Below, piece by piece: positions 481 to 32,302 of a DNA stretch of 32,302 nucleotides. Position 1 is the stretch's first letter. Each line of letters begins with the position of its first letter. The position numbers and the translations under genes are program-made. The notes under the pieces are model-generated. The model had not been told where the DNA came from. It saw only the letters and a program-made list of their open reading frames with translations, and searched no databases. The DNA is from a virus: the IMG/VR virus record IMGVR_UViG_3300023174_002331, positions 1-32,302 of that record, one strand, 5' to 3'.

Positions 481-696
481 ATGTGGACTAAGTATGATTA
501 TCTATGTACTGATTGTGATGCCCTTATAGAGATTACTGCTTGTGCAGATAAGGTTCTTGATCCCGCTTGCATTTGTGGGGGATTAGGAATAGTTATCCTA
601 TTATCACAAGGAGAAGGAACAGGACCTCTCCTGGAGCCTGTGACTAAGGTCACACCAAGAGAAGTTGTAAAAATTAACACCAACCCTTATAATTAA
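481..696 (+). CDS. zinc-ribbon-like small protein (71 aa)
   Basis: Begins MWTKYDYLCTDCDALIEI and has CTDC at residues 9-12, C21, and CIC around 30-32. This resembles the FmdB/zinc-ribbon-8 layout of a short beta hairpin with paired knuckles, although the second knuckle is CxC rather than CxxC. The tail (TPREVVKINTNPYN) is polar. ATG 481 follows the previous stop by one base. Probably a metal-binding regulatory or structural peptide; the exact role is unknown. Confidence 0.65.
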   Translation: MWTKYDYLCTDCDALIEITACADKVLDPACICGGLGIVILLSQGEGTGPLLEPVTKVTPREVVKINTNPYN

Positions 697-2992: not shown

Positions 2993-3002
2993 TTGTATAC
3001 AA
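2993..3002. promoter_or_regulatory. perfect palindrome, possible operator
   Basis: TTGTATACAA is its own reverse complement and sits 48 bp after the last rightward gene. Just upstream the direct repeat TGACTGG occurs twice (about 2968-2983), bounded by GGCC. This could be a binding site for a dimeric regulator; no bound protein can be named. Confidence 0.35.
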
Positions 3003-3030
3003 AACGGACATATCAGACAAACATTTTATA

Positions 3031-3120
3031 AAAACCTTATTACGAAGGACCAAAAAATTTTCCAGATTCATGGAATAAAAATCTTATTACGATAGACAAA
3101 TATTTTTCCAGATTCATGGA
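3031..3120. repeat. 46-bp-period direct repeat, two copies
   Basis: Copies at 3031-3074 and 3077-3120 are alike over 44 nt, with only a few differences in the middle. Each ends in TTCCAGATTCATGGA, which itself contains the inverted pair TCCA/TGGA, and each contains CTTATTACGA. The unit is too long and too few for CRISPR; as part of an origin it would be called an iteron. Confidence 0.8.
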
Positions 3121-3188
3121 GTATATCAAACAAACATATCTTTGTCAAGTATCCAGGTATATAGAGTATATTATATATAGGGGTATTT

Positions 3189-3235
3189 GGTATACTTTTA
3201 TATACCGCCGCCTTTTGGCGGCACCCCGAAGGGGT
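3189..3235. repeat. three consecutive short hairpins
   Basis: GGTATA-CTTTTA-TATACC (3189-3206), GCCGCC-TTTT-GGCGGC (3207-3222) and ACCCC-GAA-GGGGT (3223-3235) follow each other without a gap. None has a proper T-run after it, so a terminator is unlikely. ATACCGCC, the dispersed oriented motif, bridges hairpins one and two. Such folded single-strand structures can serve as primosome or initiator sites; that role is inference. Confidence 0.6.
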
Positions 3236-3478
3236 ATAAAGAAGATCACCTGATACACAAAACCTCTATAGTAAAAGACATTACGAACAAACAATTCTTT
3301 TCCCCAAATTATCCAAACATTATATACATTTTTAAAACATTTGTCTATAGTTTTTGGATATTTTTGGGGATTTTTCCTATGTTTTTATATAGGGTTTTTA
3401 CTTGACAAATAAGGATTTTATGGGTATAATCCAGCAAAAAAGGATTTGACATATAAAGGTTTTTATGATATGGGGTTT

Positions 3479-3547
3479 GGGAACTGGGTTGGTTTGAACT
3501 GCAGCATTACGAGCCGCCTCTTAAAGATGCTCCATAACCCATTTCCC
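3479..3547. other. long-stem structured element, possible ncRNA
   Basis: GGGAACTGGGTT (3479-3490) pairs with AACCCATTTCCC (3536-3547) in 11 of 12 positions. The 45-nt interior is GC-richer than its surroundings and can form AGCAT/ATGCT or GAGC/GCTC inner stems. On the - strand the interior includes GTTCAAACC, a tRNA T-loop-like string, but no cloverleaf forms. A near-consensus TTGACA (3446-3451) precedes it on the + strand without a good -10 at 17 nt. It may be a replication-primer or regulatory RNA, or a DNA structure of the origin. Confidence 0.5.
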
Positions 3548-3598
3548 TCCACTTTCCTCCATAAAACACATATGATTATATAATCAGTAATATATTAT

Positions 3599-3670
3599 TG
3601 TGGATAACATGTGGATAACTTGTCTCATATTGTGGATAAAGGTGTGGATAATTATGGAATATGTGGATAA
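3599..3670. promoter_or_regulatory. array of five perfect DnaA boxes
   Basis: TGTGGATAA, the complement of the DnaA-box consensus TTATCCACA, occurs exactly at 3599-3607, 3610-3618, 3631-3639, 3643-3651 and 3662-3670, all in one orientation. One-mismatch boxes in the opposite orientation lie outside the array at 3309-3317 (TTATCCAAA) and 3693-3701 (TTATCCAGA). Five exact 9-mers in 72 bp cannot be chance. Binding by host DnaA is inferred. Confidence 0.9.
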
Positions 3671-3673
3671 GTT

Positions 3674-3877
3674 TTATAGATTTTTCAGGGTATTATCCAG
3701 AGGAACTTCACTCTGATATCCCGTATGGCATTTATTGCAATATGATCTAGGAGCCTTACTTCTGGGATTTCCTTCAACCAGGATAATCTGTCCTATTCTA
3801 TCCATTCCAATAAGAACCTCATCTATAGTCTTTGTATATACTATAGGAGTAAGGTATGTATTACATATAGGGCACAT
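3674..3877 (-). CDS. zinc-ribbon small protein (67 aa)
   Basis: Leftward gene with CPIC at residues 2-5 and CNKC at about 47-50, a two-knuckle zinc ribbon. The rest (IDEVLIGMDRIGQIILVEG) is a short beta-alpha segment. It starts leaderless: a -10-like TAGAAT ends 6 nt before its ATG. The stop lies 3 nt from the last DnaA box. It could be an origin-linked regulator, but nothing in the sequence proves this. Confidence 0.65.
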   Translation of the reverse strand: MCPICNTYLTPIVYTKTIDEVLIGMDRIGQIILVEGNPRSKAPRSYCNKCHTGYQSEVPLDNTLKNL

Positions 3878-3883
3878 AAGTCT

Positions 3884-3889
3884 ATTCTA
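3884..3889 (-). promoter_or_regulatory. -10 box, leaderless promoter for the leftward zinc-ribbon gene
   Basis: TAGAAT on the - strand, then 6 nt, then ATG at 3877, so transcription would start at the start codon. No convincing -35 is seen. It is divergent to the -10 box at 3921-3926. Confidence 0.45.
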
Positions 3890-3920
3890 GCATATACCGT
3901 CGCAAAATTGCCATATGGGG

Positions 3921-3926
3921 TATAAT
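3921..3926 (+). promoter_or_regulatory. -10 box, leaderless promoter
   Basis: TATAAT, then exactly 6 nt, then ATG at 3933. No ribosome site can fit. The -35 region is weak. The oriented motif variant ATACCGTC lies between the two divergent promoters at 3893-3900. Confidence 0.55.
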
Positions 3927-3932
3927 TGAGAT

Positions 3933-4046
3933 ATGACTGGAATAACATGCTCTATATGTGGAAATGAAAATGCAACTCAAGTAACTACCTCTGGGAACTA
4001 TTGTGTAGCCTGTTATGGTAGATATTATGAAAATAGGAAGCGTTAG
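3933..4046 (+). CDS. small zinc-ribbon protein (37 aa)
   Basis: MTGITCSICGNENATQVTTS with CSIC (6-9) and CVAC near residues 24-27 forms a complete minimal zinc ribbon, ending YYENRKR. It is expressed from the leaderless promoter at 3921-3926. Its stop overlaps the stop of the convergent nucleotidyltransferase gene by 4 nt. A 37-aa gene is short, but the two knuckles and the promoter support it. Confidence 0.6.
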   Translation: MTGITCSICGNENATQVTTSGNYCVACYGRYYENRKR

Positions 4047-4672
4047 TTCCTACCCCGCATCTTTTCCCATTTGATTAAGTCATTGGGATAATCAAAATCT
4101 TCTGTCCAGTCATCAATATGGACATACCCATCTGTGTTATAAAATCCTGACTTAGCCTTGTCTAACCCATGAAGATGTAGATATAGTCTCCATGCCCCTG
4201 CTCCGCCTTGTTTCCTGTCTATTAGCGTTTCTATGGATGATTTGATCCTTTGGTTCATACCGCCAGAAAATGCTAAGGCAAAGATTTCCTTGTGATTTTT
4301 ACCTGTATAGGATGACTTATCTTTTCTGAGGAAAAACTTAAACTCATCCTCATTTGACATAATTGTTTTTACTGCCTCATCCGTAAAGTATACATCTCCA
4401 AAGACTATTACTGTTCTTTCCTCATCCCAGATAGGATGGGAAGAATAGACTTTGCCATAGTCAAAGAAATCTCCTACTAATGGGGAGTATGTTTGTCCTA
4501 TTGCATATTGTGGATCTGTGGAGACTATTACGATATTGTCCGTATACCGCTTGAATTGAGCATAGGTTCTATGTAGAAGAACCTGTCCCTCAACTTCAAC
4601 TATATGCTTTGGGACATTACGATAGTTTTCCCATCTCACACCTTCACCTGCTGCAACTATTAATACCTTCAT
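4043..4672 (-). CDS. nucleotidyltransferase (MobA/NTP-transferase-like)
   Basis: 209 aa. The N-terminus, VLIVAAGEGVRWENYRNVPK, matches the NTP_transferase Rossmann signature (AAGxGxRW...PK), in which the Gly/Arg loop and Lys bind the nucleoside triphosphate. VIVFGDVYFTDEAV at about residues 90-103 resembles the GDV/GD metal-binding strand of sugar-1-phosphate nucleotidyltransferases. It probably activates a sugar or related phosphate with CTP or UTP, which would suit the glycan island at 7-17 kb. It is read leftward from a leaderless start between rightward genes. The substrate cannot be read from sequence. Confidence 0.7.
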   Translation of the reverse strand: MKVLIVAAGEGVRWENYRNVPKHIVEVEGQVLLHRTYAQFKRYTDNIVIVSTDPQYAIGQTYSPLVGDFFDYGKVYSSHPIWDEERTVIVFGDVYFTDEAVKTIMSNEDEFKFFLRKDKSSYTGKNHKEIFALAFSGGMNQRIKSSIETLIDRKQGGAGAWRLYLHLHGLDKAKSGFYNTDGYVHIDDWTEDFDYPNDLIKWEKMRGRN

Positions 4673-4678
4673 ACTTTT

Positions 4679-4684
4679 AGTATA
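4679..4684 (-). promoter_or_regulatory. -10 box, leaderless promoter of the nucleotidyltransferase gene
   Basis: TATACT on the - strand followed by 6 nt and ATG 4672. The -35 is weak. It lies beside the -35 of the divergent promoter at 4689-4717, so one bound protein could affect both. Confidence 0.5.
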
Positions 4685-4688
4685 TCAT

Positions 4689-4717
4689 TTGACATACCGC
4701 CTGATTTAGGCTATACT
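4689..4717 (+). promoter_or_regulatory. consensus promoter, leaderless
   Basis: TTGACA (4689-4694), 17-bp spacer, TATACT (4712-4717), then 6 nt to ATG 4724. The spacer contains ATACCGCC (4694-4701). Confidence 0.8.
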
Positions 4718-4723
4718 GATTAG

Positions 4724-4864
4724 ATGAAGATCAACTATGGAACACAGACTGCCAATTATTCTATTGGCATATATGTGCATAACTGGGGCTATCCAGTTAG
4801 ACATGAATGGGAGATTGGCCTATACTTGTTTAAGTGGTATGTGGGAGTGGAGTTCTTTAAATGA
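4724..4864 (+). CDS. small aromatic-rich protein, paralogue A (46 aa)
   Basis: MKINYGTQTANYSIGIYVHN continues WGYPVRHEWEIGLYLF and ends KWYVGVEFFK. It is about 75% identical over its full length to the 46-aa product at 6063-6203. Four Trp residues are conserved, suggesting a compact beta or membrane-interface peptide. Leaderless start, and an ATGA overlap with the next gene. Function unknown; conservation after duplication implies selection. Confidence 0.7.
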   Translation: MKINYGTQTANYSIGIYVHNWGYPVRHEWEIGLYLFKWYVGVEFFK

Positions 4865-5088
4865 CACACGATGAGTTATCAATAGAAGTTAGTCGTAGGC
4901 TACAAGTTGCTTTATATAATGGTGATATACCAGCGATTCATGCTCTTAAAGCAGTAGTAGAGTTGCATAAGCCATATGAACATGAAGTTGTTAGTTATGT
5001 TTTTTGTCAAGGATGTACAATAGATTTAGACTTAGCACCACCCTATCCATGTGAAACAATTCAGGCTATTGAGAAGGAGTTGGGATGA
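4861..5088 (+). CDS. MTHDEL-type phage protein, copy 1 (75 aa)
   Basis: Begins MTHDELSIEVSRRLQVALYN. Ends with CQGC, then PPYPCETIQAIEKELG. The combination of ALKAVVELHKP, a Cys pair and YPCxTIxxI near the C-terminus is a recurrent small actinophage family of unknown function with a probable zinc site. The gene immediately downstream is a diverged copy with the same MTHDELS start. Confidence 0.75.
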   Translation: MTHDELSIEVSRRLQVALYNGDIPAIHALKAVVELHKPYEHEVVSYVFCQGCTIDLDLAPPYPCETIQAIEKELG

Positions 5089-5297
5089 CACACGATGAGT
5101 TATCCAAGAAACTAGAAGCCCTATGGCATGATTCCTTCAAGGATCCAGCCTATGCTACCCTTCGTGCATTGGTTGAATATCACGAACCATTTGATTTTAA
5201 TTTAGGTGAAGAAACCTATACAGCATGTTATTGTGGTAGAGACTATCCGTGTCCAACTATTGAGATTGTTATAGGTAAATTAAATGGACAGATCTAA
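5085..5297 (+). CDS. MTHDEL-type phage protein, copy 2 (70 aa)
   Basis: Starts MTHDELSKKLEALWHDSFKD. It shares ATLRALVEYHEPF, a Cys pair (CYC) and DYPCPTIEIVIGKL with copy 1. It overlaps copy 1 by 4 nt, the arrangement of a tandem duplication. Function unknown; metal binding through Cys residues is likely. Confidence 0.75.
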   Translation: MTHDELSKKLEALWHDSFKDPAYATLRALVEYHEPFDFNLGEETYTACYCGRDYPCPTIEIVIGKLNGQI

Positions 5298-5424
5298 GTC
5301 TCAAATCAGACGTATCTCAGTATCTGCCTGTCCTAAATGTCTAATGTCTAAAGAAGACATTGAGTATTGGGATAGCCATCAGACTATGCAAGATGGGAAT
5401 ATTTGGTGTGCCAAAAGAACCTAG
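5284..5424 (+). CDS. small Cys-containing protein (46 aa)
   Basis: MDRSKSQIRRISVSACPKCL with CPKC at 16-19 and a single Cys in NIWCAKRT at the end. The N-terminus is basic, which would suit nucleic-acid binding. It overlaps the previous gene by 14 nt and fills a gap too short for longer genes. Role unknown. Confidence 0.55.
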   Translation: MDRSKSQIRRISVSACPKCLMSKEDIEYWDSHQTMQDGNIWCAKRT

Positions 5425-5428
5425 AATT

Positions 5429-5524
5429 ATGCAGATGGATTGGAAAGCATTAGGATATGAAAGGGTATGGGTAGATGGCAAAATCAGATGGATTCGGCAA
5501 GATAACAAAGCATCAAAAGACTAA
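5429..5524 (+). CDS. possible 31-aa peptide
   Basis: MQMDWKALGYERVWVDGKIR continues WIRQDNKASKD. ATG 5429 follows the previous stop by 4 nt. It overlaps the next gene by 50 nt, more than is usual here, so one of the two starts may be wrong. The three Trp residues and good coding texture make it plausible, but the evidence is thin. Confidence 0.35.
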   Translation: MQMDWKALGYERVWVDGKIRWIRQDNKASKD

Positions 5525-5753
5525 GATTCTTCCCCTTAGATGGATTGGCAACATATGTGGTGGATATGCAGGCAATCATCTAGTTAAGTGTTTTGATTAT
5601 GATGAAGACAATAGGCATGGCTTTGCCTATAGATACCACGCAAAAATGTATCAAATACTAAATATGCCTTATGAATTATGGGGCACATATTATATGGTTG
5701 ATACTAAGGCTTGGAAAGAAACATTAACCGATGGCGAGTCGCAAGACTCGTAG
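5475..5753 (+). CDS. hypothetical protein (92 aa)
   Basis: Begins MAKSDGFGKITKHQKTKILP, basic at the N-terminus, then aromatic and Gly-rich (GFAYRYHAKMYQILNMPYEL). GGGTA stands just before ATG 5475. No domain recognised. A perfect 6-bp hairpin with a GCAA tetraloop overlaps the last codons. Confidence 0.6.
   Translation: MAKSDGFGKITKHQKTKILPLRWIGNICGGYAGNHLVKCFDYDEDNRHGFAYRYHAKMYQILNMPYELWGTYYMVDTKAWKETLTDGESQDS
5735..5750. other. hairpin with GNRA tetraloop at gene end
   Basis: CGAGTC-GCAA-GACTCG immediately precedes the TAG stop at 5751-5753. There is no T-run, only GGTGGTTT downstream, so it is at best a weak terminator or an RNA-stability element. Confidence 0.45.
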
Positions 5754-5784
5754 GGTGGTTTGTGACTCTATTTTCGCGCCGAAC

Positions 5785-5813
5785 TTGACGTATTTGTCGC
5801 CGAACTGTATAAT
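5785..5813 (+). promoter_or_regulatory. consensus promoter, leaderless
   Basis: TTGACG (5785-5790), 17-bp spacer, TATAAT (5808-5813), then 6 nt to ATG 5820. CGCCGAACT is repeated directly in and before the spacer (5777-5785 and 5798-5806), a possible regulator site. Confidence 0.85.
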
Positions 5814-5819
5814 GGGTAT

Positions 5820-5933
5820 ATGAAACTAATTATAGGACTTTTAGTATATGGGCTATCTGTTGCTACCATTATTGCTTTTATGATGGGTGCAACCCGCAAA
5901 GAAAAAGAATGGGATCAGAATCATGGAAAATAA
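5820..5933 (+). CDS. single-pass small membrane protein (37 aa)
   Basis: MKLIIGLLVYGLSVATIIAF is one hydrophobic helix (residues 2-23), followed by a charged tail TRKEKEWDQNHGK. With one transmembrane segment and the positive charge after it, the tail is probably cytoplasmic. First gene after a perfect leaderless promoter. Function unknown; it could act on the host membrane. Confidence 0.65.
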   Translation: MKLIIGLLVYGLSVATIIAFMMGATRKEKEWDQNHGK

Positions 5934-6066
5934 AGAAATAGCAGATTTATTAGATAAAGAATCTTATCGTATCTGGGATACAACTAAGGTTATCAAGAAT
6001 CAAGACTACCATGATGGATTGGTAAAAGGTCTTAAGATGGCATCTAAGTTGGTGGCTAAACTATGA
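5923..6066 (+). CDS. small hypothetical protein (47 aa)
   Basis: MENKEIADLLDKESYRIWDT followed by KVIKNQDYHDGLVKGLKMAS. Helical, mixed charge, no Cys. Overlaps its neighbours by 11 and 4 nt. No family recognised. Confidence 0.6.
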   Translation: MENKEIADLLDKESYRIWDTTKVIKNQDYHDGLVKGLKMASKLVAKL

Positions 6067-6203
6067 AACTTCGCTTTGGCACAATGACTGCTAATTATTC
6101 TTTAGGTGTGTATCTTCATAACTGGGGGTATCCTATCAAGCATGAATGGGAAATTGGATTGTACTTGTTTAAGTGGTATATAGGATTGGATTTCTTTAAA
6201 TGA
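6063..6203 (+). CDS. small aromatic-rich protein, paralogue B (46 aa)
   Basis: MKLRFGTMTANYSLGVYLHN aligns without gaps to the product at 4724-4864; the shared core includes HEWEIGLYLFKWY. The two genes are 1.2 kb apart and each is followed, with an ATGA overlap, by a small helical gene, so a two-gene module may have been copied. Function unknown. Confidence 0.7.
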   Translation: MKLRFGTMTANYSLGVYLHNWGYPIKHEWEIGLYLFKWYIGLDFFK

Positions 6204-6379
6204 GTCTAGATGATATGATGTTAAGAGAAGAGATTGCCAGGGCTATTGAGGCTATACCGCTGGGTGAAGACAATGCCCAACACAATGCATTGGGTATGCG
6301 TATGCTTGCTGCAAAGGTTGCAAGGGGAGAAAACAACCACATGTCTAGCATCTTTGAACAGCAGATAGATTTTGAATAA
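6200..6379 (+). CDS. small helical protein (59 aa)
   Basis: MSLDDMMLREEIARAIEAIP then MRMLAAKVARGENN. It sits behind paralogue B where the MTHDEL-type gene sits behind paralogue A, and the start (MSLDDM.. versus MTHDEL..) and IEAI-type helix are loosely similar, but the Cys motifs are absent. It overlaps the next gene by 8 nt. Confidence 0.6.
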   Translation: MSLDDMMLREEIARAIEAIPLGEDNAQHNALGMRMLAAKVARGENNHMSSIFEQQIDFE

Positions 6380-6581
6380 ACATTACGATATTCCAGATCC
6401 TTTCCAGACCTTTGTATATAAAAAATATGCAAATGCCAAAGGGTATATACATGATTTCTTTAGTGGTGAATGGTCTTATAAGTGTTTAACTTGTAAGGAA
6501 GATCTTTGTGCACCGTCCAGAAAAATTATGACTAAAATACGTTTGTATCATAGTCGTAATGAGTGTATGGGAGGGTATTAA
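6372..6581 (+). CDS. Cys-rich hypothetical protein (69 aa), TTG start
   Basis: The only usable start is TTG 6372 inside the previous gene. The product has CLTC (about residues 38-41), a further Cys (EDLCAP), then HSRNEC near the end: four Cys plus one His in zinc-finger spacing. The N-terminus is DIPDPFQTFVYKKYANAKGY. Probable metal-binding protein; role unknown. Confidence 0.55.
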   Translation: MNKHYDIPDPFQTFVYKKYANAKGYIHDFFSGEWSYKCLTCKEDLCAPSRKIMTKIRLYHSRNECMGGY

Positions 6582-6582
6582 A

Positions 6583-6714
6583 ATGTTATTGCACATACTA
6601 TGGGGAATGTTGTTTGGTTATCTAATTGCAACATTTAATTTTGCATTGGTATTGGTTAATAAAGGATACCGCTCAGTTAGCGAGATTCCAGATAAGGAGT
6701 TAGATAATGGATGA
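6583..6714 (+). CDS. single-pass small membrane protein (43 aa)
   Basis: MLLHILWGMLFGYLIATFNF is a hydrophobic segment reaching to about residue 25, followed by NKGYRSVSEIPDKELDNG. One transmembrane helix. TACCGCT (6667-6673) lies in the coding sequence. Overlaps the next gene by 8 nt. Confidence 0.6.
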   Translation: MLLHILWGMLFGYLIATFNFALVLVNKGYRSVSEIPDKELDNG

Positions 6715-6802
6715 AGACTTAAATGATCCACACACATACTGGAAAGAAATACTTATTGTTGTGGCTATCCTTTCATTCTTACTTGGTGTTTTAGTTGGAT
6801 GA
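6707..6802 (+). CDS. single-pass small membrane protein (31 aa)
   Basis: MDEDLNDPHTYWKEILIVVA followed by ILSFLLGVLVG. Acidic N-terminus and a C-terminal transmembrane helix, a tail-anchored layout. It is one of three tiny membrane proteins within 1 kb. Its shortness makes it less certain, but the overlaps on both sides fit the gene chain. Confidence 0.5.
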   Translation: MDEDLNDPHTYWKEILIVVAILSFLLGVLVG

Positions 6803-6903
6803 GATACTGTGATTATTGCAATGCCCCGTTAGATAGCAATGCTTGTTTATATTGTTATAATAATAAAGAATCATTAGAAGAGTTTGACAATGAAGACGAT
6901 TAA
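6799..6903 (+). CDS. small zinc-ribbon protein (34 aa)
   Basis: MRYCDYCNAPLDSNACLYCY carries CDYC (4-7) and CLYC (16-19), a perfect two-knuckle minimal zinc ribbon, then an acidic tail. ATGA overlap with the previous gene. Its 3' end contains the -35 box of the next promoter. Confidence 0.6.
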   Translation: MRYCDYCNAPLDSNACLYCYNNKESLEEFDNEDD

Positions 6904-6912
6904 TGGTATGAT
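6884..6912 (+). promoter_or_regulatory. consensus promoter upstream of the glycan island
   Basis: TTGACA (6884-6889), 17-bp spacer, TATGAT (6907-6912). Expected start near 6919, leaving a short leader with AGGGGG before ATG 6933. This would drive the cytidylyltransferase gene and the one behind it. Confidence 0.85.
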
Positions 6913-6932
6913 AGAAATCTAGGGGGAAACAA

Positions 6933-7355
6933 ATGATAGTCTACACTGGAGGCACTTTTGATCTTTTTCATTCTGGGCATGTGAATTTTTTAAAACGTTG
7001 TAAAGAGATTGCTGGGCATGACGGAAAAGTTATTGTATCTTTAAACACAGATAGTTTTATTCTTGAATATAAGAAAGAACTGCCAGTTTGTTCAGAACAA
7101 GAAAGAAAAGTAGTGTTGGAGTCTTGTAGGCATGTAGACGAAGTTGTGTTTAACATAGGTGGAAAAGATTCAAAAGTAGCAATAGAATTAGTTAACCCAG
7201 ACTATGTTGTAATTGGGTCAGATTGGGCAAGAAAAGACTACTATAAACAAATGGAATTTACACAAGAATGGCTAGATAAAAAGAATATAGGATTGATCTA
7301 TATCCCATACACACCTGATATTTCTACAACAAAGATCAAGGAAAAAATTTTATGA
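6933..7355 (+). CDS. glycerol-3-phosphate cytidylyltransferase-like (TagD family)
   Basis: 140 aa, a usual length for TagD-like CTP transferases. MIVYTGGTFDLFHSGHVNFL holds the HxGH motif at 13-16 that binds CTP, and ISTTKIKEKI at 130-139 is the second signature (ISTxxI). These enzymes join CTP to a phosphorylated alcohol or sugar, giving CDP-activated precursors of teichoic acid or heptose-type glycans. It opens the glycan island behind a strong promoter and overlaps the next gene by 4 nt. FAD-synthase-like or ADP-heptose-type relatives share these motifs, so the exact substrate is open. Confidence 0.85.
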   Translation: MIVYTGGTFDLFHSGHVNFLKRCKEIAGHDGKVIVSLNTDSFILEYKKELPVCSEQERKVVLESCRHVDEVVFNIGGKDSKVAIELVNPDYVVIGSDWARKDYYKQMEFTQEWLDKKNIGLIYIPYTPDISTTKIKEKIL

Positions 7356-8179
7356 AGTCTTTTGTATATATTGTTTGTTGGGAAGATGTTTTAGAAAATG
7401 TATTAGACATTGAAAAACATTTTTTAGAACATGAAACCCCACACAAAATTATTAACTCTGGGCTTACTCAAAATGAAAGATGGGATAACGTTGGTGATAT
7501 TAGATATTATAGACAATTTTATCACGCTTTAAAAAGTTTTGATTATGATAAATATGATTATATGGGATTTTTATGTGGAGATGTTTCATATAACGAATGG
7601 CCAAAATTTTTAGATAGAGTTGAAGATGTTTTATCTTCGTATGAAGATGTTGGTCTTTATGCACCACGCCTAACATTTATGCCTGTAAATCAAAAAGTAA
7701 CGGAATTAAAAAAACTAAAAAATGATCAAGACTTAATAGTATCAATTCATACTGATGGAATATTTTATTATATTCATAAAGATATTGCACAATCAATTTT
7801 AACTTTTTTTAATATAATTAATAAAAATTTAGATTTATCAAAAATGATCAGTGGTTGGGGTATAGATACAGTTGCTGCCATTACATCTATAAGCAATAAC
7901 AAGGCTATTATTTGTGATAATAAGCATGTCTTAAATCATCCAGAAGAAAGCAGTTATGATCATATGATGGCTAAAGAAGAAAACAAAATATTCCTTGAGG
8001 AATATGTAAAATATATGAAAAGCAATAATGAGGATTATAGTGATATGAAATTCTATCAGGCAAAATTTAAAACTAGGTTTATGTTTCAAGACAACAATAC
8101 AAAAAAATTTTTAATGAACATAGAAGATTTTTATACAAACTTGCCAAAACATTTTGAGTTAGAAGAGTTTGACAACTAA
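7352..8179 (+). CDS. putative glycosyltransferase-like protein (275 aa)
   Basis: No exact family recognised. The N-terminus (FVYIVCWEDVLENVLDIEKH), a mid-protein MGFLCGDVSYNEWPKFLDRV, and GWGIDTVAAITSISN near residue 168 follow the order of GT-A-type transferases: donor strand, D-containing metal motif, then a GWGxD acceptor motif. The gene is more AT-rich than its neighbours, with runs of Lys, Asn, Ile and Phe codons, a sign of separate acquisition. It is cotranscribed with the cytidylyltransferase. Its last codons contain the -35 of the ssb promoter. Confidence 0.55.
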   Translation: MKSFVYIVCWEDVLENVLDIEKHFLEHETPHKIINSGLTQNERWDNVGDIRYYRQFYHALKSFDYDKYDYMGFLCGDVSYNEWPKFLDRVEDVLSSYEDVGLYAPRLTFMPVNQKVTELKKLKNDQDLIVSIHTDGIFYYIHKDIAQSILTFFNIINKNLDLSKMISGWGIDTVAAITSISNNKAIICDNKHVLNHPEESSYDHMMAKEENKIFLEEYVKYMKSNNEDYSDMKFYQAKFKTRFMFQDNNTKKFLMNIEDFYTNLPKHFELEEFDN

Positions 8180-8197
8180 GTTGATCAATGATATGAT
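8169..8197 (+). promoter_or_regulatory. consensus promoter for ssb
   Basis: TTGACA (8169-8174), 17-bp spacer, TATGAT (8192-8197). Same hexamers and spacing as the promoter at 6884-6912. Expected start near 8204, then GAGAGAAGAAAG before ATG 8225. Confidence 0.85.
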
Positions 8198-8224
8198 ATA
8201 TAGACGAGTAGAGAGAAGAAAGAT

Positions 8225-8632
8225 ATGAATCCAAAGGTAACGGTAGTAGGACGTATTGGCGCAGATCCAGAAGCAATTGGAACAAGCGGAGTGCGTATGC
8301 GTGTAGTAACAAATGATCGTGTTAAGAATCCACAGACAGGTGCATGGGAAGACCGTGATACATCTTGGTGGACTGTAAAGGCTTGGAAGACTCTTGCTGA
8401 GCAAGCAAGGGCAACCTTGAAGAAAGGTCAAGAAGTAATTATTGTTGGAACAATCTATCAGGAAAGTTGGACAGATAGTGCTGGCGCAACAAAGACTTCT
8501 TATGAAATTAATGCTGAGTCACTTGCTTTAACTATGCACACCTTGACAAGAGATATGCCAGGTATTGCTTCTGCAGCACCAAAAGTTGCATCAGTGCCAG
8601 CAGAAGATCCTTGGAAAAAGGTAAATGTCTAA
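8225..8632 (+). CDS. ssb: single-stranded DNA-binding protein
   Basis: 135 aa with an OB fold: MNPKVTVVGRIGADPEAIGT at the start, WWTVKAWKTLAEQARATLKK in the middle and EVIIVGTIYQESWTD matching the SSB core. The C-terminus ends EDPWKKVNV instead of the usual acidic DDxxF tip, so partner recruitment may differ from host SSB. It coats ssDNA during phage replication. It has its own consensus promoter and overlaps the next gene by 8 nt. Confidence 0.9.
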   Translation: MNPKVTVVGRIGADPEAIGTSGVRMRVVTNDRVKNPQTGAWEDRDTSWWTVKAWKTLAEQARATLKKGQEVIIVGTIYQESWTDSAGATKTSYEINAESLALTMHTLTRDMPGIASAAPKVASVPAEDPWKKVNV

Positions 8633-8843
8633 TTTTGATGATCTAACTGATGATCAAAAGTCACAGGTAATGAATTTAGTTATACTAACTGTGAAAGAGA
8701 TTAGAGAACAAATTGCTAATGATATTGAGTATACATATGAAGTATGGGCTACTCATGGAAAAGCAAAAAGTCGTAGAACTAAGAAAGCATTTGAGGTCTG
8801 TGCAGATATTGCAAGAGGCCTAAATGAAATAGTAGAGAAGTAA
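8625..8843 (+). CDS. hypothetical protein downstream of ssb (72 aa)
   Basis: Helical protein, MSNFDDLTDDQKSQVMNLVI to ADIARGLNEIVEK, with a basic patch KAKSRRTKKAFEV. ATG 8625 overlaps the end of ssb, so the two are translationally coupled, which suggests a role in DNA metabolism. No family recognised. Confidence 0.65.
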   Translation: MSNFDDLTDDQKSQVMNLVILTVKEIREQIANDIEYTYEVWATHGKAKSRRTKKAFEVCADIARGLNEIVEK

Positions 8844-8862
8844 TGTTTGGGGGTAGGTTTAA

Positions 8863-9630
8863 TTGAAAGATATTACGCCTACCCCTGAAACAATTAATAA
8901 ATTAGATGGGTTTGGGCCACTCTATATAATTAATTTAAAGCGCCGTACTGATAGGTATGAACGCATGATGAATCTTATAAACAATAACAATATAACTAAC
9001 TATACTTTTGTTGAAGCAGTAGATGCTACAGAAAACATTGATCATTTAATTCACAATATTGAACAAAAACATAGGGCTATGGCACAAATGCCAGAGATTG
9101 CAACAACAATTTCTCATATAAAAGCAATAGAATATTGGCTTAATACATCTAATAGTGAATATGCTATATTTGCAGAAGATGATCTTTCTGATGAAACCCT
9201 TCAATACTGGGGCTGGACATGGAAAGAGTTTATATCTTCAGTAGACTTTGATTACGATGTTCTACAATTATGCCAGACGCAGTTTACTAAAATAGACTAT
9301 AAGATTCATAAAAGAATGAGGAATGACTACAGCGCAGGGCTATATATTTTAAAACGTGAACATGCCAAGGGCATCCTAGATAGGATGATTTATAAGGGTA
9401 AGTATAAGGTGAATGACCATAGAACAAAGATTTTAGCAGACCATACAGTTATTTATGGTAATACAGATAAGGCTTATTCTTGTGGGCTTTTTACCTATGA
9501 TACCGACACAAATTCAGATGTAAATCCAAGTGGTGCAAATCTTCACAAAAGGTCTAGGGAACTAGTCCTTAAGTTCTGGAAAGAAAATAAAATATCTTTA
9601 AAGGATTTTATAGGAAACCATAAAAAGTGA
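8863..9630 (+). CDS. glycosyltransferase family 25-like
   Basis: TTG start at 8863 with GGGGGTAGG 6 nt upstream. 255 aa. LYIINLKRRTDRYERMM (20-36) is the N-terminal signature of GT25 (LPS-biosynthesis galactosyltransferase type), followed by FVEAVDA. IFAEDDLSDE near 105-112 gives the acidic metal-binding motif. HIKAIEYW and the later DHTVIYG match the family order. It transfers a sugar from a nucleotide donor to a glycan or protein; donor and acceptor are not evident. Confidence 0.8.
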   Translation: MKDITPTPETINKLDGFGPLYIINLKRRTDRYERMMNLINNNNITNYTFVEAVDATENIDHLIHNIEQKHRAMAQMPEIATTISHIKAIEYWLNTSNSEYAIFAEDDLSDETLQYWGWTWKEFISSVDFDYDVLQLCQTQFTKIDYKIHKRMRNDYSAGLYILKREHAKGILDRMIYKGKYKVNDHRTKILADHTVIYGNTDKAYSCGLFTYDTDTNSDVNPSGANLHKRSRELVLKFWKENKISLKDFIGNHKK

Positions 9631-9725
9631 TACAATTATATCCTCAATCTTTCCCAACATATCTGCATCACCTGCAGTATAAATATAGGTGACGACCTGA
9701 GTATGTCGCTACATAAACTGCTCAC

Positions 9726-9754
9726 TTGACTTATTATGATGAGTATAGTACAAT
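9726..9754 (+). promoter_or_regulatory. promoter before the second glycosyltransferase and tRNA block
   Basis: TTGACT (9726-9731), 17-bp spacer, TACAAT (9749-9754). Expected start near 9761, then AAAAGGGGTGG before ATG 9782. The 95 bp before it hold small hairpins (CACCT/AGGTG around 9667-9693) without a T-run. Confidence 0.8.
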
Positions 9755-9781
9755 TAGTATAGAGAAAAGGGGTGGATTCTT

Positions 9782-10549
9782 ATGCCACATAGCGTTAAAG
9801 AAACAATTACAATTGGCTGGTGTGATGGTGGTACCGTAGAAGGACGATTTACCAGCGGTATTGCTAATACAATTATTGAAGCAGCAAAACAAAAGATCAA
9901 TATTGATAATACTATACGTGTAAATGGTAATCAGATTGCACGACAAAGACAATCTTTGTTTGATTATTGGGCAGACTTAGCAACAAGCGATTGGCTTTTG
10001 TGGGTAGACTCTGACATTGTAATTGATTACAATATTGTAAAAATGTTATGGGATGTAGCGGATAAGAAAACAAAACCAATAGTAACTGGAACATATTTTG
10101 TTTCTAGTGAAAACGAACAAACACTCATGCAGCCACTCCCTTCTTTGTACATGGAAACAGGAGATGAATTTCAAACACATGTTGTTCACCCTCTTCCAGA
10201 AAACAAAGTTATACCAGTAGACATTGCTGGATTTGGCCTTATGCTAATGCATAGATCTATTGTTGATCCAGTAAGAAAGGCTGCTGAAGGGTATTCCGTT
10301 TTTGGAGAAAAACAAAACCCTGGGGCTAAGTTTGTTAGTGAAGATGTTGCATTCTGTCGCTATGTTAAAAAGGCTGGCATTCAACTACACGCTCATACTG
10401 GAGCAGTTGTTCCACATATGAAAAAGTTTTCATTTGATAAGAATTATTATAATATTTATTGGAGCAGTATTGCTGATGGCAAGATTAGAAAACATAATCC
10501 TGGATTAGTTGATAAAGATCCAGTAAAAGAAAAAGATGGTGTGTCTTAA
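9782..10549 (+). CDS. glycosyltransferase family 2-like (GT-A fold)
   Basis: 255 aa. WLLWVDSDIVIDYNIVKMLW contains the DSD triad (76-78) of GT-A enzymes, preceded by RQRQSLFDYWADLATSDW. VDIAGFGLMLMHRSIV and VSEDVAFCRYVKKAG match the acceptor-site and ED motifs of GT2. The N-terminus (TIGWCDGGTVEGRF) is phage-type. Good AGGGGTGG ribosome site. It lies just before the tRNA genes in the same transcript. Substrate unknown. Confidence 0.8.
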   Translation: MPHSVKETITIGWCDGGTVEGRFTSGIANTIIEAAKQKINIDNTIRVNGNQIARQRQSLFDYWADLATSDWLLWVDSDIVIDYNIVKMLWDVADKKTKPIVTGTYFVSSENEQTLMQPLPSLYMETGDEFQTHVVHPLPENKVIPVDIAGFGLMLMHRSIVDPVRKAAEGYSVFGEKQNPGAKFVSEDVAFCRYVKKAGIQLHAHTGAVVPHMKKFSFDKNYYNIYWSSIADGKIRKHNPGLVDKDPVKEKDGVS

Positions 10550-10557
10550 TGACACAG

Positions 10558-10631
10558 GGGGCAATAGCCAAGTTGGTTAAGGCACCGAACTCATAATTCG
10601 GCTATCCTAGGTTCAAGTCCTAGTTGCCCTA
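10558..10631 (+). tRNA. tRNA-Met (CAT)
   Basis: Full cloverleaf: acceptor GGGGCAA/TTGCCCT, D stem GCC/GGC, anticodon stem CCGAA/TTCGG with loop CTCATAA, T stem CTAGG/CCTAG with loop TTCAAGT, discriminator A. No encoded CCA. The anticodon stem lacks the three G-C pairs of an initiator, so it is elongator Met, or tRNA-Ile2 if C34 is modified to lysidine. Confidence 0.92.
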
Positions 10632-10635
10632 CAAT

Positions 10636-10708
10636 TGGTCTGTAACTCAGTTGGCAGAGTGGGAAACTGTTAATTTCCAAGTCGTAGGTTCGAGTCCTAC
10701 CAGACCAG
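10636..10708 (+). tRNA. tRNA-Asn (GTT)
   Basis: Acceptor TGGTCTG/CAGACCA, D stem ACTC/GAGT, anticodon stem GGAAA/TTTCC with loop CTGTTAA, T stem GTAGG/CCTAC with loop TTCGAGT, discriminator G. Starts 4 nt after tRNA-Met, so the two are processed from one transcript. No encoded CCA. Confidence 0.93.
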
Positions 10709-10712
10709 CATT

Positions 10713-10783
10713 GCGGATATTGCATAGTGGTAGTGCGTAACCTTGCCAAGGTTAATGTGCGAGTTCGATTCTCGCTATTCGCT
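10713..10783 (+). tRNA. tRNA-Gly (GCC)
   Basis: Acceptor GCGGATA/TATTCGC (one G-T), D stem GCAT/GTGC, anticodon stem TAACC/GGTTA with loop TTGCCAA, T stem GCGAG/CTCGC with loop TTCGATT, discriminator T as usual for Gly. The endonuclease VII start codon follows 2 nt later. Confidence 0.92.
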
Positions 10784-10785
10784 CA

Positions 10786-11142
10786 ATGAAAACATGTAGC
10801 AAGTGTAAACTTGATCTAGATAACTCAGAGTTTTCACCATCTTCTGGTGGTAAATATCTAAGACCTGAGTGTAGGCAGTGTGCAAAAAAATTAGCAAAAC
10901 GTAGAGAAGAATTAAAGAAAGAGTTTGGTTATCCTGTTAATGATTATGCCTGCCCAATATGTTTAAAAAATGAAGATGAGTTAAAAGGTACTGGTGGAAA
11001 TGCTAGTATATGGGTAGTTGATCATGACCACGGCACCGATAAGTTTAGAGGTCATATCTGTCACAACTGTAATCGTGGTCTTGGTGTTTTTCAAGACAAC
11101 ATAGAAAGACTTGAGAGAGCAATTAAATATTTATCTCTGTAA
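10786..11142 (+). CDS. recombination endonuclease VII-like (HNH/His-Me finger)
   Basis: 118 aa. Two zinc knuckles: C4/C7 with C29/C32, then C56/C59 with C92/C95. WVVDHDHGTDKFRGHICHNC (76-95) followed by NRGLGVFQDN is the endonuclease VII signature, with the catalytic DHDH at 79-82. This family resolves branched DNA during phage replication and packaging; small relatives also act as homing endonucleases. ATG 10786 has no room for a ribosome site except inside tRNA-Gly, and the last 10 nt are also the first 10 nt of tRNA-Arg, a striking squeeze into a tRNA array. Confidence 0.88.
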   Translation: MKTCSKCKLDLDNSEFSPSSGGKYLRPECRQCAKKLAKRREELKKEFGYPVNDYACPICLKNEDELKGTGGNASIWVVDHDHGTDKFRGHICHNCNRGLGVFQDNIERLERAIKYLSL

Positions 11143-11204
11143 CTCAGCGGAAGAGTGACACCCTTCTAAGGTGTAGGTCGCAGGTTCGAATCCTGCCAGG
11201 GATG
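11133..11204 (+). tRNA. tRNA-Arg (TCT)
   Basis: Acceptor ATCTCTG/CAGGGAT (one T-G), D stem ACTC/GAGT, anticodon stem ACACC/GGTGT with loop CTTCTAA, T stem GCAGG/CCTGC with loop TTCGAAT, discriminator G. It reads AGA codons, which are common in these AT-rich genes. Its first 10 nt encode the last residues and TAA stop of the endonuclease VII gene. Confidence 0.92.
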
Positions 11205-11233
11205 CTATAATAGATTAAAACAAAGGGGTAATC

Positions 11234-12193
11234 TTGGCAAACATAGTTTTCTTGGGTAATTTTGAGGTAGAGTATAGTAGTGAAAATCATCACGCTAAAT
11301 CTTTAGAGTCTCTTGGCCATACCGTCGTTAAATTGCAAGAGCGTGTAGCAATGACAGAAGTTATTTTGCGTCATGCGCTTAATAGTGATCTGTTTATTTG
11401 GGTACACACACATGGGTGGAAGACAACTGGAAAGATTACGATGGACTCTGTTTTGGCCAGATTGAACAAGGCTGGGGTGCCAACAATGACCTATCATCTT
11501 GATTTGTGGTTTGGATTAGATAGACAAACGGATCTAAGCAAGGACAACTTTTATAAAACAATTGGACATTTTTTCACGGTAGATAAATTGATGGCTGATT
11601 GGTTTAATGAAAATACTCAGGTGAAGGGACACTTCATTCCTGCTGGAGTATACGATAAAGAGTGTTACATACATGAAGACTACACTAAAGAATCTTTTGA
11701 GAATGATATTATCTTTGTTGGAAGCAAGAGATACCATCATGAATATCCATATAGACCTCAATTAATTGAATACTTAAAGAAAAAATACGGTAAAAGATTT
11801 CTTCATGTTGGTGGAGATGGCGATACTGGAACTATTCGTGGTCAGGCATTAAATAAGATGTATGCAAAAAGTAAGATAGCAATTGGAGATAGTTTAAATA
11901 TTGGCTTTAACTATCCATACTATACAAGTGATAGATTGTTTGAGAGTACTGGTCGTGGTGGCTTTACTATCTACCCTCGCATCAAGGGTCTTGAAGAATA
12001 CTTTGAAGATAGTAAAGAAATTGTTTTTTATGAACATGGAAACTTTGAAGATCTGTCAAATAAAATAGATAAGTATTTAGCAGATGATGAAGAGCGTGAA
12101 AAGATTCGTATGGCTGGACACGAAAGAACAAAAACAGAGCATACTTATTTAAATAGATGGACAGCAATAATGAATGAGTTAGGTATAAAATGA
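11234..12193 (+). CDS. CgeB-like glycosyltransferase (GT-B, Glyco_trans_1_2)
   Basis: 319 aa, TTG start at 11234 behind AAAGGGG. The N-terminal half (IVFLGNFEVEYSSENHHAKS; TYHLDLWFGLDRQTD) and the C-terminal half with DRLFESTGRGGFTIYPRIKG, then VFYEHGNFEDLSNKI and RIRM-type AGHERTKTEHTY, match the CgeB/DUF3880 plus Glyco_trans_1_2 order. This suggests a GT-B enzyme transferring from a nucleotide sugar. TATAAT at 11206-11211, right after tRNA-Arg, may be a local -10. Overlaps the next gene by 4 nt. Confidence 0.78.
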   Translation: MANIVFLGNFEVEYSSENHHAKSLESLGHTVVKLQERVAMTEVILRHALNSDLFIWVHTHGWKTTGKITMDSVLARLNKAGVPTMTYHLDLWFGLDRQTDLSKDNFYKTIGHFFTVDKLMADWFNENTQVKGHFIPAGVYDKECYIHEDYTKESFENDIIFVGSKRYHHEYPYRPQLIEYLKKKYGKRFLHVGGDGDTGTIRGQALNKMYAKSKIAIGDSLNIGFNYPYYTSDRLFESTGRGGFTIYPRIKGLEEYFEDSKEIVFYEHGNFEDLSNKIDKYLADDEEREKIRMAGHERTKTEHTYLNRWTAIMNELGIK

Positions 12194-20175: not shown

Positions 20176-20460
20176 TTACTGCTCCATTGTTAATGATTGC
20201 CAAGTCAAAGACCATTCTTGCTTTGATCTATGATTACTAAACTCTCTTGAGATTTCTCCACCTTCTAGGTAAATACCGCCCCAAACTCCCCATTCTTTAC
20301 CAGACACACCAACTGCAAAGCATCTCTTTGCTACTGGACATGTTCTACAAAGAGAATCAACAAACTCTCTGCTCTCTGGATTTTCTTCATATTGATCAAA
20401 AAATATATTTGTGTCAGAGCCTAAACACTGTGCATCATCTTTCCATAGATGTTGTTTCAT
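20176..20460 (-). CDS. WhiB-family transcriptional regulator
   Basis: 94 aa from ATG 20460, picked because AGGGGC precedes it; the longer frame to 20496 overlaps the upstream gene. Four Cys at 12, 38, 41 and 47 (Q-C, then CRTCPVAKRC) bind a [4Fe-4S] cluster, and WGVWGG at 57-62 is the invariant beta-turn. WhiB proteins occur only in Actinobacteria and their phages, and act with sigma A to redirect transcription. The phage copy could remodel host gene expression or block host WhiB. The C-terminus is short and lacks a strong AT-hook. Confidence 0.95.
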   Translation of the reverse strand: MKQHLWKDDAQCLGSDTNIFFDQYEENPESREFVDSLCRTCPVAKRCFAVGVSGKEWGVWGGIYLEGGEISREFSNHRSKQEWSLTWQSLTMEQ

Positions 20461-20461
20461 G

Positions 20462-20671
20462 TTAGCCCCTATATCTGTTTGGAATGTCCCATCCATTACG
20501 AGTGACTTTGTAAACTCTTTGCATGTACCAAAGGCCTTTTACTCTCACACCGTTAACGGCAGTACGTGCAGAATCAGATCTTTTTAAATCTACTACGTCC
20601 CATCCAACCCATGAAAGATTAGTATTAGCCTTTACAATCTTTTCCATCTTTTCTAAATTAGTTACAATCAT
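20462..20671 (-). CDS. conserved phage small protein (69 aa)
   Basis: SWVGWDVVDLKRSDSARTAV followed by KGLWYMQRVYKVTRNGWDIP. A W-G-W-D...K-x-L-W...NGWxIPN pattern, which I associate with phage hypothetical families of unknown function. It ends 2 nt before the whiB start, so both are on one message. Basic C-terminus suggests nucleic-acid contact. Confidence 0.65.
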   Translation of the reverse strand: MIVTNLEKMEKIVKANTNLSWVGWDVVDLKRSDSARTAVNGVRVKGLWYMQRVYKVTRNGWDIPNRYRG

Positions 20672-26926: not shown

Positions 26927-27108
26927 TATTGCTCCTTTATCTTAAATACTACTTGACATGGGTCGCCCCCTGCTTCCCATTCTTCTTGCTCTTCTTCGCT
27001 CATATATGGATCTCCATCATGAGTGTTACAAAACGGTTCAGTAATCCATCCTCGTTCAATACCGTTGTTTAACCAGATATCAAACTCATCATAATCTTCT
27101 TCTAGCAT
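26926..27108 (-). CDS. conserved actinophage small acidic protein (60 aa)
   Basis: DIWLNNGIERGWITEPFCNT then MSEEEQEEWEAGGDPCQVVF. The pattern W-x-x-x-G-I-x-x-G-W...C-x-T-H-x-G...EEWEAGGDPC is a recurring actinophage family without known function. One-base overlap with the secreted protein gene. Confidence 0.72.
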   Translation of the reverse strand: MLEEDYDEFDIWLNNGIERGWITEPFCNTHDGDPYMSEEEQEEWEAGGDPCQVVFKIKEQ

Positions 27109-27123
27109 ATTAAAAGTATACCC

Positions 27124-27642
27124 CTAACCTTGAACAAAGTCAATTTGACCAATGCATGATGAACTAAATTCAATAGCACAACCTAGAGCAAGAGCAAGCC
27201 TACGCTTTGGATCTTTATGATTTTGGGTAGCATGAAGAGATCCAATAGCGTAGTCCGCCCCTGATCCTATGGCAACATAATCTCTGTCATAGGAAATCAT
27301 AGTAAACCCCTCTGCTTCATGCTCATAGAGTTTACCTTTTATGCCAATAAGAAGGGATATTTCACTTTCTTTACCACCAATATCCCATTCATTATAAAAT
27401 TCTTTTAGGGATTTTAAAAATTTTCCATGCATAAATTTATCTATGTTACCTTCTGGGGTTGGGGGTACAAAATTATATTGAATAATTTGTGCATCAAATG
27501 TACCAGCATATCCAAATACATATGCTCCAGATTTCCAGATTTTTGGTTTGTCAATAGAAACAATATAGTTACCTTCAGAGGCACCACGTTCACCAGCAAG
27601 GTGTACCTTGCCGTCCTTCATTATTCCTGCAATACAAGTCAT
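27124..27642 (-). CDS. proteasome beta/HslV-like Ntn hydrolase
   Basis: 172 aa. MTCIAGIMKDGKVHLAGERG aligns with HslV/proteasome-beta starts: Thr2 would be the N-terminal nucleophile after Met removal, E18 takes the Asp17 place, and DKPKIWKSG provides the Lys. FGYAGTFDAQ and VAIGSGADYAIGSLHA (G-S-G-x-x-A) are family landmarks. No ATPase partner lies nearby. It may cleave or process host or phage proteins, or be a self-assembled protease. Own strong promoter at 27670-27698. Confidence 0.8.
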   Translation of the reverse strand: MTCIAGIMKDGKVHLAGERGASEGNYIVSIDKPKIWKSGAYVFGYAGTFDAQIIQYNFVPPTPEGNIDKFMHGKFLKSLKEFYNEWDIGGKESEISLLIGIKGKLYEHEAEGFTMISYDRDYVAIGSGADYAIGSLHATQNHKDPKRRLALALGCAIEFSSSCIGQIDFVQG

Positions 27643-27669: not shown

Positions 27670-27698
27670 AGTATATCAGAGGCAGGCATGGCTGTCAA
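27670..27698 (-). promoter_or_regulatory. consensus promoter for the Ntn-hydrolase gene
   Basis: On the - strand TTGACA (27698-27693), 17-bp spacer, TATACT (27675-27670). Then AGGGGTAGG and ATG 27642. Confidence 0.85.
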
Positions 27699-30353: not shown

Positions 30354-30359
30354 ATTATA
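30354..30359 (-). promoter_or_regulatory. -10 box for the PA14 protein gene
   Basis: TATAAT on the - strand, 7 nt before ATG 30346: leaderless or nearly so. Shares TTGATATAATAAAGAT with the HNH promoter. The -35 is weak. Confidence 0.5.
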
Positions 30360-31558: not shown

Positions 31559-32302
31559 TTAAATTAGTTTGTATTCATCTAGGAAATCTCTGATATCTTC
31601 AGGAATTTCCCTAGTTTCTAATTCTACCATATCCCTTTGCTTTTGTGCAAGTCGGGATGCAGTAGACCAGGTATGGATCTCAATTTCTAGATTAGAGTCC
31701 TTGCTGGTGTGAGATATTGCTCCAAATACCGCCCCACAAACGGCATCTGCCAAGTCCTTAGATTTCTTGCGTGGATGGTCAACCTTATTATTTCTCATAA
31801 TCTTAAGTTCACTCATCTCATCAAGCAATAAAGGAATCATTGGCATAGCAACTCTTTCTTCATATATCATCATTGCTAAATCTTCATAATGTTTTTTAGC
31901 AACAGAAACAGTATCAGTTCTTATACCGACAGCCTTTAATTCATTTTGAATATCAAAAGACTGCCACCTATCAAACGATACCATTCCAATATTAAATCCT
32001 TCTCTGCGAAGGTTTTGTATCCATAGTTTTACCTCAGATAGGTTTACTGGTCCTTCTACCTTTGGTTCCCACCAAGCAACGGCATCAACAATTACAATTG
32101 GTGCTACCTGCTCATAATCTTTAATTACCTGAATGCTAACCCACTTATCAACATGGGCAATCGCAACTGCACACTTATCGTGTTTTTGTGCAAGGTCAGC
32201 ATGAACATAATAAACTTTATCTGGATCTGGTTTAAAGCCAGGATCAAATCTTCTATGACTATCCACAGGATTTCTTAAGGTCATACATCTTTCTAACTTA
32301 TC
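31559..32302 (-). CDS. terL: terminase large subunit, C-terminal nuclease part (partial)
   Basis: About 247 residues to the window edge. The frame stays open through the internal ATG at 32284, so the N-terminal ATPase lies outside. YYVHADLAQKHDKCAVAI gives the first nuclease Asp, IGMVSFDRWQSFDIQ the second, and KKSKDLADAVCGAVFGAISH the third: an RNase H-like terminase nuclease. EPKVEGPVNLSEVKLWIQNL lies between. It cuts concatemers and packs DNA into the head. Read leftward, 16 nt before the Ala-rich protein gene. Confidence 0.9.
   Translation of the reverse strand, partial: DKLERCMTLRNPVDSHRRFDPGFKPDPDKVYYVHADLAQKHDKCAVAIAHVDKWVSIQVIKDYEQVAPIVIVDAVAWWEPKVEGPVNLSEVKLWIQNLRREGFNIGMVSFDRWQSFDIQNELKAVGIRTDTVSVAKKHYEDLAMMIYEERVAMPMIPLLLDEMSELKIMRNNKVDHPRKKSKDLADAVCGAVFGAISHTSKDSNLEIEIHTWSTASRLAQKQRDMVELETREIPEDIRDFLDEYKLI

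Follow-up and report, generated by a model that had tools for sequence, protein, structure and literature searches.

A 6-nt spacing between -10 elements and start codons points to leaderless promoters in an uncultured freshwater phage, its relatives and its likely host order

Results and discussion

The source stretch and its probable host

The window, by which we mean the whole 32,302-nt stretch of DNA analysed here (IMG/VR virus record IMGVR_UViG_3300023174_002331; GC 36%), appears to come from a freshwater actinobacterial virus. It carries a whiB-like gene, a marker of actinobacterial phages (20176-20496; Pfam Whib, E 2e-12), an SSB gene (8225-8632, + strand) and, at its right end, a TerL fragment (31559-32284). 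Evaluating the relatives of this TerL, we found that those with annotation among phage records were mostly from Streptomyces and Gordonia phages (best ~45%), and that the sole match among bacterial genomes was a Ca. Nanopelagicales MAG (59% identity), on a contig that is perhaps a co-binned phage. The host is thus likely actinobacterial, with Nanopelagicales plausible though not proven. Similarity of tRNAs between the window and the order of this MAG gave a weak match and was dropped as host evidence. No near DNA match to window positions 3000-12000 was found among 50,697 phage records.

Start codons placed 6 nt behind a -10 element

Within the window, we identified the following elements and genes in which a -10 hexamer stands 6 nt ahead of an ATG (hereafter N6):

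688..693, + strand: TATAAT, 6 nt ahead of ATG 700; overlaps the end of gene 481-696
3884..3889, - strand: -10 TAGAAT with TGC extension, 6 nt ahead of ATG 3877
3674..3877, - strand: predicted leaderless gene, 67-aa Cys-rich (CPxC...CNxC) protein
3921..3926, + strand: -10 TATAAT, 6 nt ahead of ATG 3933
3933..4046, + strand: predicted leaderless gene, 37-aa CxxC protein, divergent from 3877
4679..4684, - strand: -10 TATACT with TGA extension, 6 nt ahead of ATG 4672
4043..4672, - strand: predicted leaderless gene, 209-aa sugar nucleotidyltransferase-like (NTP_transf_3) protein; phrog_33187, E 2e-22
4689..4717, + strand: promoter TTGACA-17-TATACT, 6 nt ahead of ATG 4724
4724..4864, + strand: predicted leaderless gene, 46 aa, paralog of 6063-6203
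5785..5813, + strand: promoter TTGACG-17-TATAAT, 6 nt ahead of ATG 5820
5820..5933, + strand: predicted leaderless gene, 37-aa hydrophobic microprotein
27115..27143, - strand: promoter TTGACT-17-TATACT, 6 nt ahead of ATG 27108

The original prediction had placed five start codons, 3877(-), 3933(+), 4672(-), 4724(+) and 5820(+), exactly 6 nt behind a -10 box, two of them with a perfect promoter; all five spacings are exact, and the two promoters are present as described (4689-4717 and 5785-5813). These starts do form a cluster, as had been proposed, but the arrangement is not confined to it, as two N6 starts that had been overlooked lie elsewhere, namely 700(+), with TATAAT-N6-ATG, and 27108(-), with TTGACT-17-TATACT-N6-ATG. 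By direct reading, a -35 is present at 4724, 5820 and 27108, a TGN extension without -35 at 3877 and 4672, and neither at 3933. No Shine-Dalgarno (SD) sequence was found at the five originally claimed starts, and each of the two features by which TA-led genes are recognised, a TANNNT some 12 bp ahead of the start codon and the lack of an SD, was found here.

To quantify this spacing, we counted canonical -10 hexamers (TATAAT, TATACT, TAGAAT, TAAAAT, TACAAT, TATGAT) ahead of 71 gene starts in the window, which is the distance count that had been proposed as a check, and found 7 at distance 6 versus 0.59 per distance at other distances (Poisson p 3e-6). Across the entire window, hexamer-N6-ATG occurred 16 times versus 6.0 in dinucleotide shuffles (max 13, n=200). 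Four starts had been offered as comparators in which the same promoter type is followed by a leader, and here the -10 to ATG distances are indeed long:

6907..6912, + strand: leadered -10, 20 nt ahead of ATG 6933, with SD-like AGGGGG
8192..8197, + strand: leadered -10 of the SSB gene, 27 nt ahead of ATG 8225
9749..9754, + strand: leadered -10, 27 nt ahead of ATG 9782
27670..27675, - strand: leadered -10, 27 nt ahead of ATG 27642

An SD-like G-rich stretch is clear in three of these four, with 8225 having only AGAGAGAAGAAAG. The promoters of 6933 and 8225 (6880-8225) also have GAGTTTGACAA... in common, and close relatives carry only the SSB one, which suggests that the two genes at 6933-8179 were inserted, either carrying a promoter with them or duplicating one.

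The 6-nt peak beyond the window: related phages and the likely host order

We repeated the distance count on ~215 related phage loci, calling ORF starts mechanically and removing near-duplicates. Among 1,587 non-redundant ATG starts, 93 possessed a canonical -10 at distance 6 against a background of 6.7 (p ~8e-71), with only 6 at distance 5 and 11 at distance 7. No such peak was seen at in-frame internal ATGs of the same loci (17/3,475 at distance 6 versus 8.9), nor in the equally AT-rich control phages, cyanophage P-SSM2 (100 kb) and T4 (50 kb), where 2/189 starts had the hexamer at this distance. TTG starts showed no peak at 6, and GTG starts a weak one in phages (14 versus 5.2) that is clear in some genomes of the likely host group. 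A minor second peak at 11 nt proved to be an artefact of TATGATATAAT, in which the TATGAT of an extended -10 was counted.

The N6 starts also differ in composition, although these fractions are approximate because the starts are uncurated: an SD was present at 8% of N6 starts, versus 53% of starts whose -10 lies 17-45 nt away and 32% of all non-N6 starts; a TGN preceded the -10 in 47/93; a near-consensus -35 at 16-18 bp occurred in 20/93 versus 2 at shifted spacing; and base -1 was T in 60% of N6 starts versus 25% elsewhere. Altogether 64/93 N6 starts across the phage loci have the features of a SigA (sigma-70) promoter, that is, TTGACA at 16-18 bp or TGN.

We then counted TANNNT before ATG starts in parts of six genomes that share the order of the Ca. 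Nanopelagicales MAG, revealing 83 at distance 6 versus ~9 expected (22, 23, 10, 21, 4 and 3 per genome versus 2.2, 2.6, 1.5, 1.9, 0.3 and 0.3). The peak lies at 6 in five of the six, the last one (G003) having 4 at distance 7. As the 6-nt peak is common to genomes of the likely host order, the phages follow a rule of their likely host group.

Conservation of the spacing at individual starts

Most individual N6 starts of the window recur in relatives. At 3877, 5 close relatives and L019 (51% protein identity) share the N6 while the upstream DNA diverges, and the start codon is secure because the N-terminal Cys motif is conserved. Homologs of 3933 have N6 in L002 and L064 and N7 in L058. For 4672, whose position is fixed by the nucleotide-binding N-terminus of its product, N6 occurs in L001 and L002 and also in homologs of 41-45% identity (L019, L010, L027, L029). 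The N6 promoter at 700 is kept in L057 and L055, and that at 27108 in homologs on ~10 other contigs (64-93% identity), whose -10 and spacer sequences vary.

Four of the N6 starts form two divergent pairs in the window with ATGs only 51-55 bp apart, so that two polymerases probably cannot occupy both promoters of a pair together. Across phages, the 3877/3933 pair has 45, 55 or 71 bp between its start codons with both N6 kept, and tighter divergent leaderless pairs of 32-39 bp were found in six contigs (L014, L015, L020, L026, L029, L030).

Leadered and leaderless starts of the same gene

A sixth start, 30346(-), had been proposed with a spacing of 7 nt:

30354..30359, - strand: TATAAT, 7 nt ahead of ATG 30346; start doubtful

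The spacing stands (TATAAT-N7-ATG), but the choice of start codon is open to doubt: in most homologs the -10 is unchanged and leads to AAGCAAGAGGAGAGTCCACCAC-TTG, i.e., an SD with a TTG start, which corresponds to TTG 30331, five codons downstream of ATG 30346; the window, L138 and L139 deviate in having ATG at N7. ATG 30346 is, judging from this comparison, probably a recent or false leaderless start: either the mode changed lately, or TTG 30331 is still the start.

The gene at 27642 is leadered in the window and most homologs, and N6 leaderless in distant homologs (L084, L087, L089/L090 and L098). It encodes an HslV/proteasome-like peptidase (27124-27642; phrog_1040), whose orthologs thus alternate between leadered and leaderless starts. 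Interchange of this kind among orthologs is a known phenomenon (PMC3160421).

Interpretation and alternatives

We interpret the N6 starts as leaderless promoters read by host SigA, coexisting with leadered ones, and consider this reading highly likely. Under it, host sigma-70/SigA polymerase would bind the -10, with help from either a TTGAC 17 bp away or a TGN extension; transcription would start on the A of the ATG, giving an mRNA without a 5' leader; and the host ribosome would start on the 5'-terminal AUG without SD contact. In the phage, several genes that open a transcription unit, the two divergent pairs among them, would be expressed in this way, with leadered SD genes used elsewhere. 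Transcription start, SigA use and leaderless translation are all predicted here from sequence. If the A of the ATG is the transcription start, few SDs and a T at -1 are to be expected, as counted at N6. Both the leaderless reading of the original prediction and its proposal that two start modes coexist are therefore supported, the one by the sharp 6-nt peak in phages and likely host order, the missing SD, the T at -1 and the conserved spacing, the other by N6 starts that lack an SD alongside leadered promoters at 20-27 nt. Several observations speak against this reading: 3933 has no clear -35 or TGN, 700 lies behind a promoter inside the coding sequence of the preceding gene, 30346 fails the homolog comparison, and one 3933 homolog has 7 nt.

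Transcripts might instead begin further upstream, the genes having SD-less leaders and the -10 at 6 nt being incidental, and many phage genes in the set do lack a clear SD; however, a peak at one position that is missing at internal ATGs cannot come from incidental hexamers, and the spacing persists where flanks and downstream genes differ, such that we regard this explanation as improbable. A further concern is that some N6 ATGs are not true starts, with 30346 really starting at TTG 30331 behind a short SD leader and its ATG a by-product. That most 30346 homologs read TATAATAAGCAAGAGGAGAGTCCACCAC-TTG favours this, but three genomes keep the ATG at 30346, and for the other claimed genes the ATG is backed by N-terminal motifs or by homologs or paralogs with the same start, leaving false starts a very slim chance as a general account. 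Chance itself must be weighed in an AT-rich genome that yields many -10-like hexamers near ATGs: TANNNT is common, and a promoter scan of the first 12 kb gave 62 hits versus 51.6 in shuffles. Against this stand the 7 versus 0.6 at window starts, the 93 versus 6.7 in relatives and the conservation, and with the shuffles, internal ATGs and control phages ruling out AT-richness as the source, we give chance practically no weight.

Gene exchange behind conserved promoters

Returning to host-SigA leaderless promoters, the most interesting part is that genes are exchanged downstream of a promoter-ATG that stays conserved. The promoter at 5820 contains two repeats:

5777..5785, + strand: CGCCGAACT repeat copy 1, ends on the -35; candidate operator
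5798..5806, + strand: CGCCGAACT repeat copy 2, 21 bp downstream, one base ahead of the -10

This promoter, together with both repeats, recurs in six other contigs (L001, L002, L019, L059, L061, L064), always with N6, and the gene that follows varies between hydrophobic microproteins (L001, L002, L059), the 4861/5085 family (L064), the 5929 family (L061) and the 6201 family (L019). The CGCCGAACT motif occurs 44 times in the phage loci, counted without deduplication, versus 7 expected, and from their placement the repeats look like possible operator sites of the 5820 promoter. In L002 the 4724 promoter is found with N6 ahead of a gene homologous to the one at ~5414; in L001 it precedes a different gene, which has a leader and an SD. 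Exchange at a fixed breakpoint is thus seen at 5820 and partly at 4724. In the window, 4724-4864 and 6074-6203 share 80% nucleotide identity, and of these two 46-aa paralogs the one at 4724-4864 sits behind the leaderless promoter while that at 6063-6203 overlaps the preceding gene.

A promoter running right up to its own ATG might serve as a docking module for small genes exchanged at a fixed breakpoint: with neither a leader nor a ribosome site required, any reading frame joined at the ATG would be expressed. Leaderless genes might also continue to be translated when infection impairs normal initiation. We put these two ideas forward jointly as speculation that is rather unlikely to hold.

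Relation to known leaderless systems

Among M. tuberculosis genes whose starts have been mapped, 22-26% have leaderless mRNAs (PMC3898074), and prediction puts the share at >20% of actinobacterial genes (PMC3160421). The N6 starts resemble these M. tuberculosis and TA-led genes in having TANNNT ~12 bp before the start, no SD, a pyrimidine at -1 and a purine at +1, but differ in their near-consensus TATAAT/TATACT, some TTGAC -35 elements, viral origin, low GC and a TGN at half of the -10s versus 7% in M. tuberculosis. Among phages, the closest parallel is the pair of divergent leaderless promoters PL1/PR2 predicted in Cluster O mycobacteriophages (PMC4351075), which likewise are SigA-like, belong to an actinophage, occupy an AT-rich intergenic stretch close to one end and have +1 predicted on the first base of the start codon. 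Homologous DNA is not shared, window positions 3000-12000 being unmatched in the 50,697 phage records, and the start codons are 500 bp apart in Cluster O versus 51-55 bp in the window, with spacings in Firecracker of 7 and 8 nt (as read here from L286) versus 6. Mycobacteriophage Adephagia gene 90 (PMC11373665) is also a small phage gene with a predicted leaderless mRNA, but unlike the window involves a single promoter of a toxin-antitoxin locus.

The pattern is real, well supported and more general than originally thought, and it is of a known kind. Already known are leaderless starts in Actinobacteria and their prediction in a few actinophages; here they amount to a general rule, precise to the single nucleotide, across a large uncultured group of freshwater phages and in its likely host order. 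Such a rule offers a simple means to correct gene starts and find promoters in these metagenomic genomes, and the conserved promoter-ATG with its exchanged genes represents a natural experiment on leaderless/leadered interconversion.

Other features of the region

The hexamer ATACCG is strongly strand-biased in the window, with 25 of 26 copies on the + strand (177, 863, 3202, 3894, 4257, 4694 and others), for which no explanation was found. Next to the divergent leaderless promoters and a conserved AT-rich stretch, ATATATTACTGATTATATTAT, lie five perfect DnaA boxes (TTATCCACA, all on the - strand) within 72 bp (3599-3670), and similar arrays occur in close relatives and in L072, L078, L082, L084, L088, L096 and L098. 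Going by its sequence, the array is possibly a DnaA-dependent phage origin or a DnaA sink. A perfect TTGACA-17-TATAAT at 3402-3430, with no ATG at 6 nt, is directed toward this array and could make a priming or untranslated RNA.
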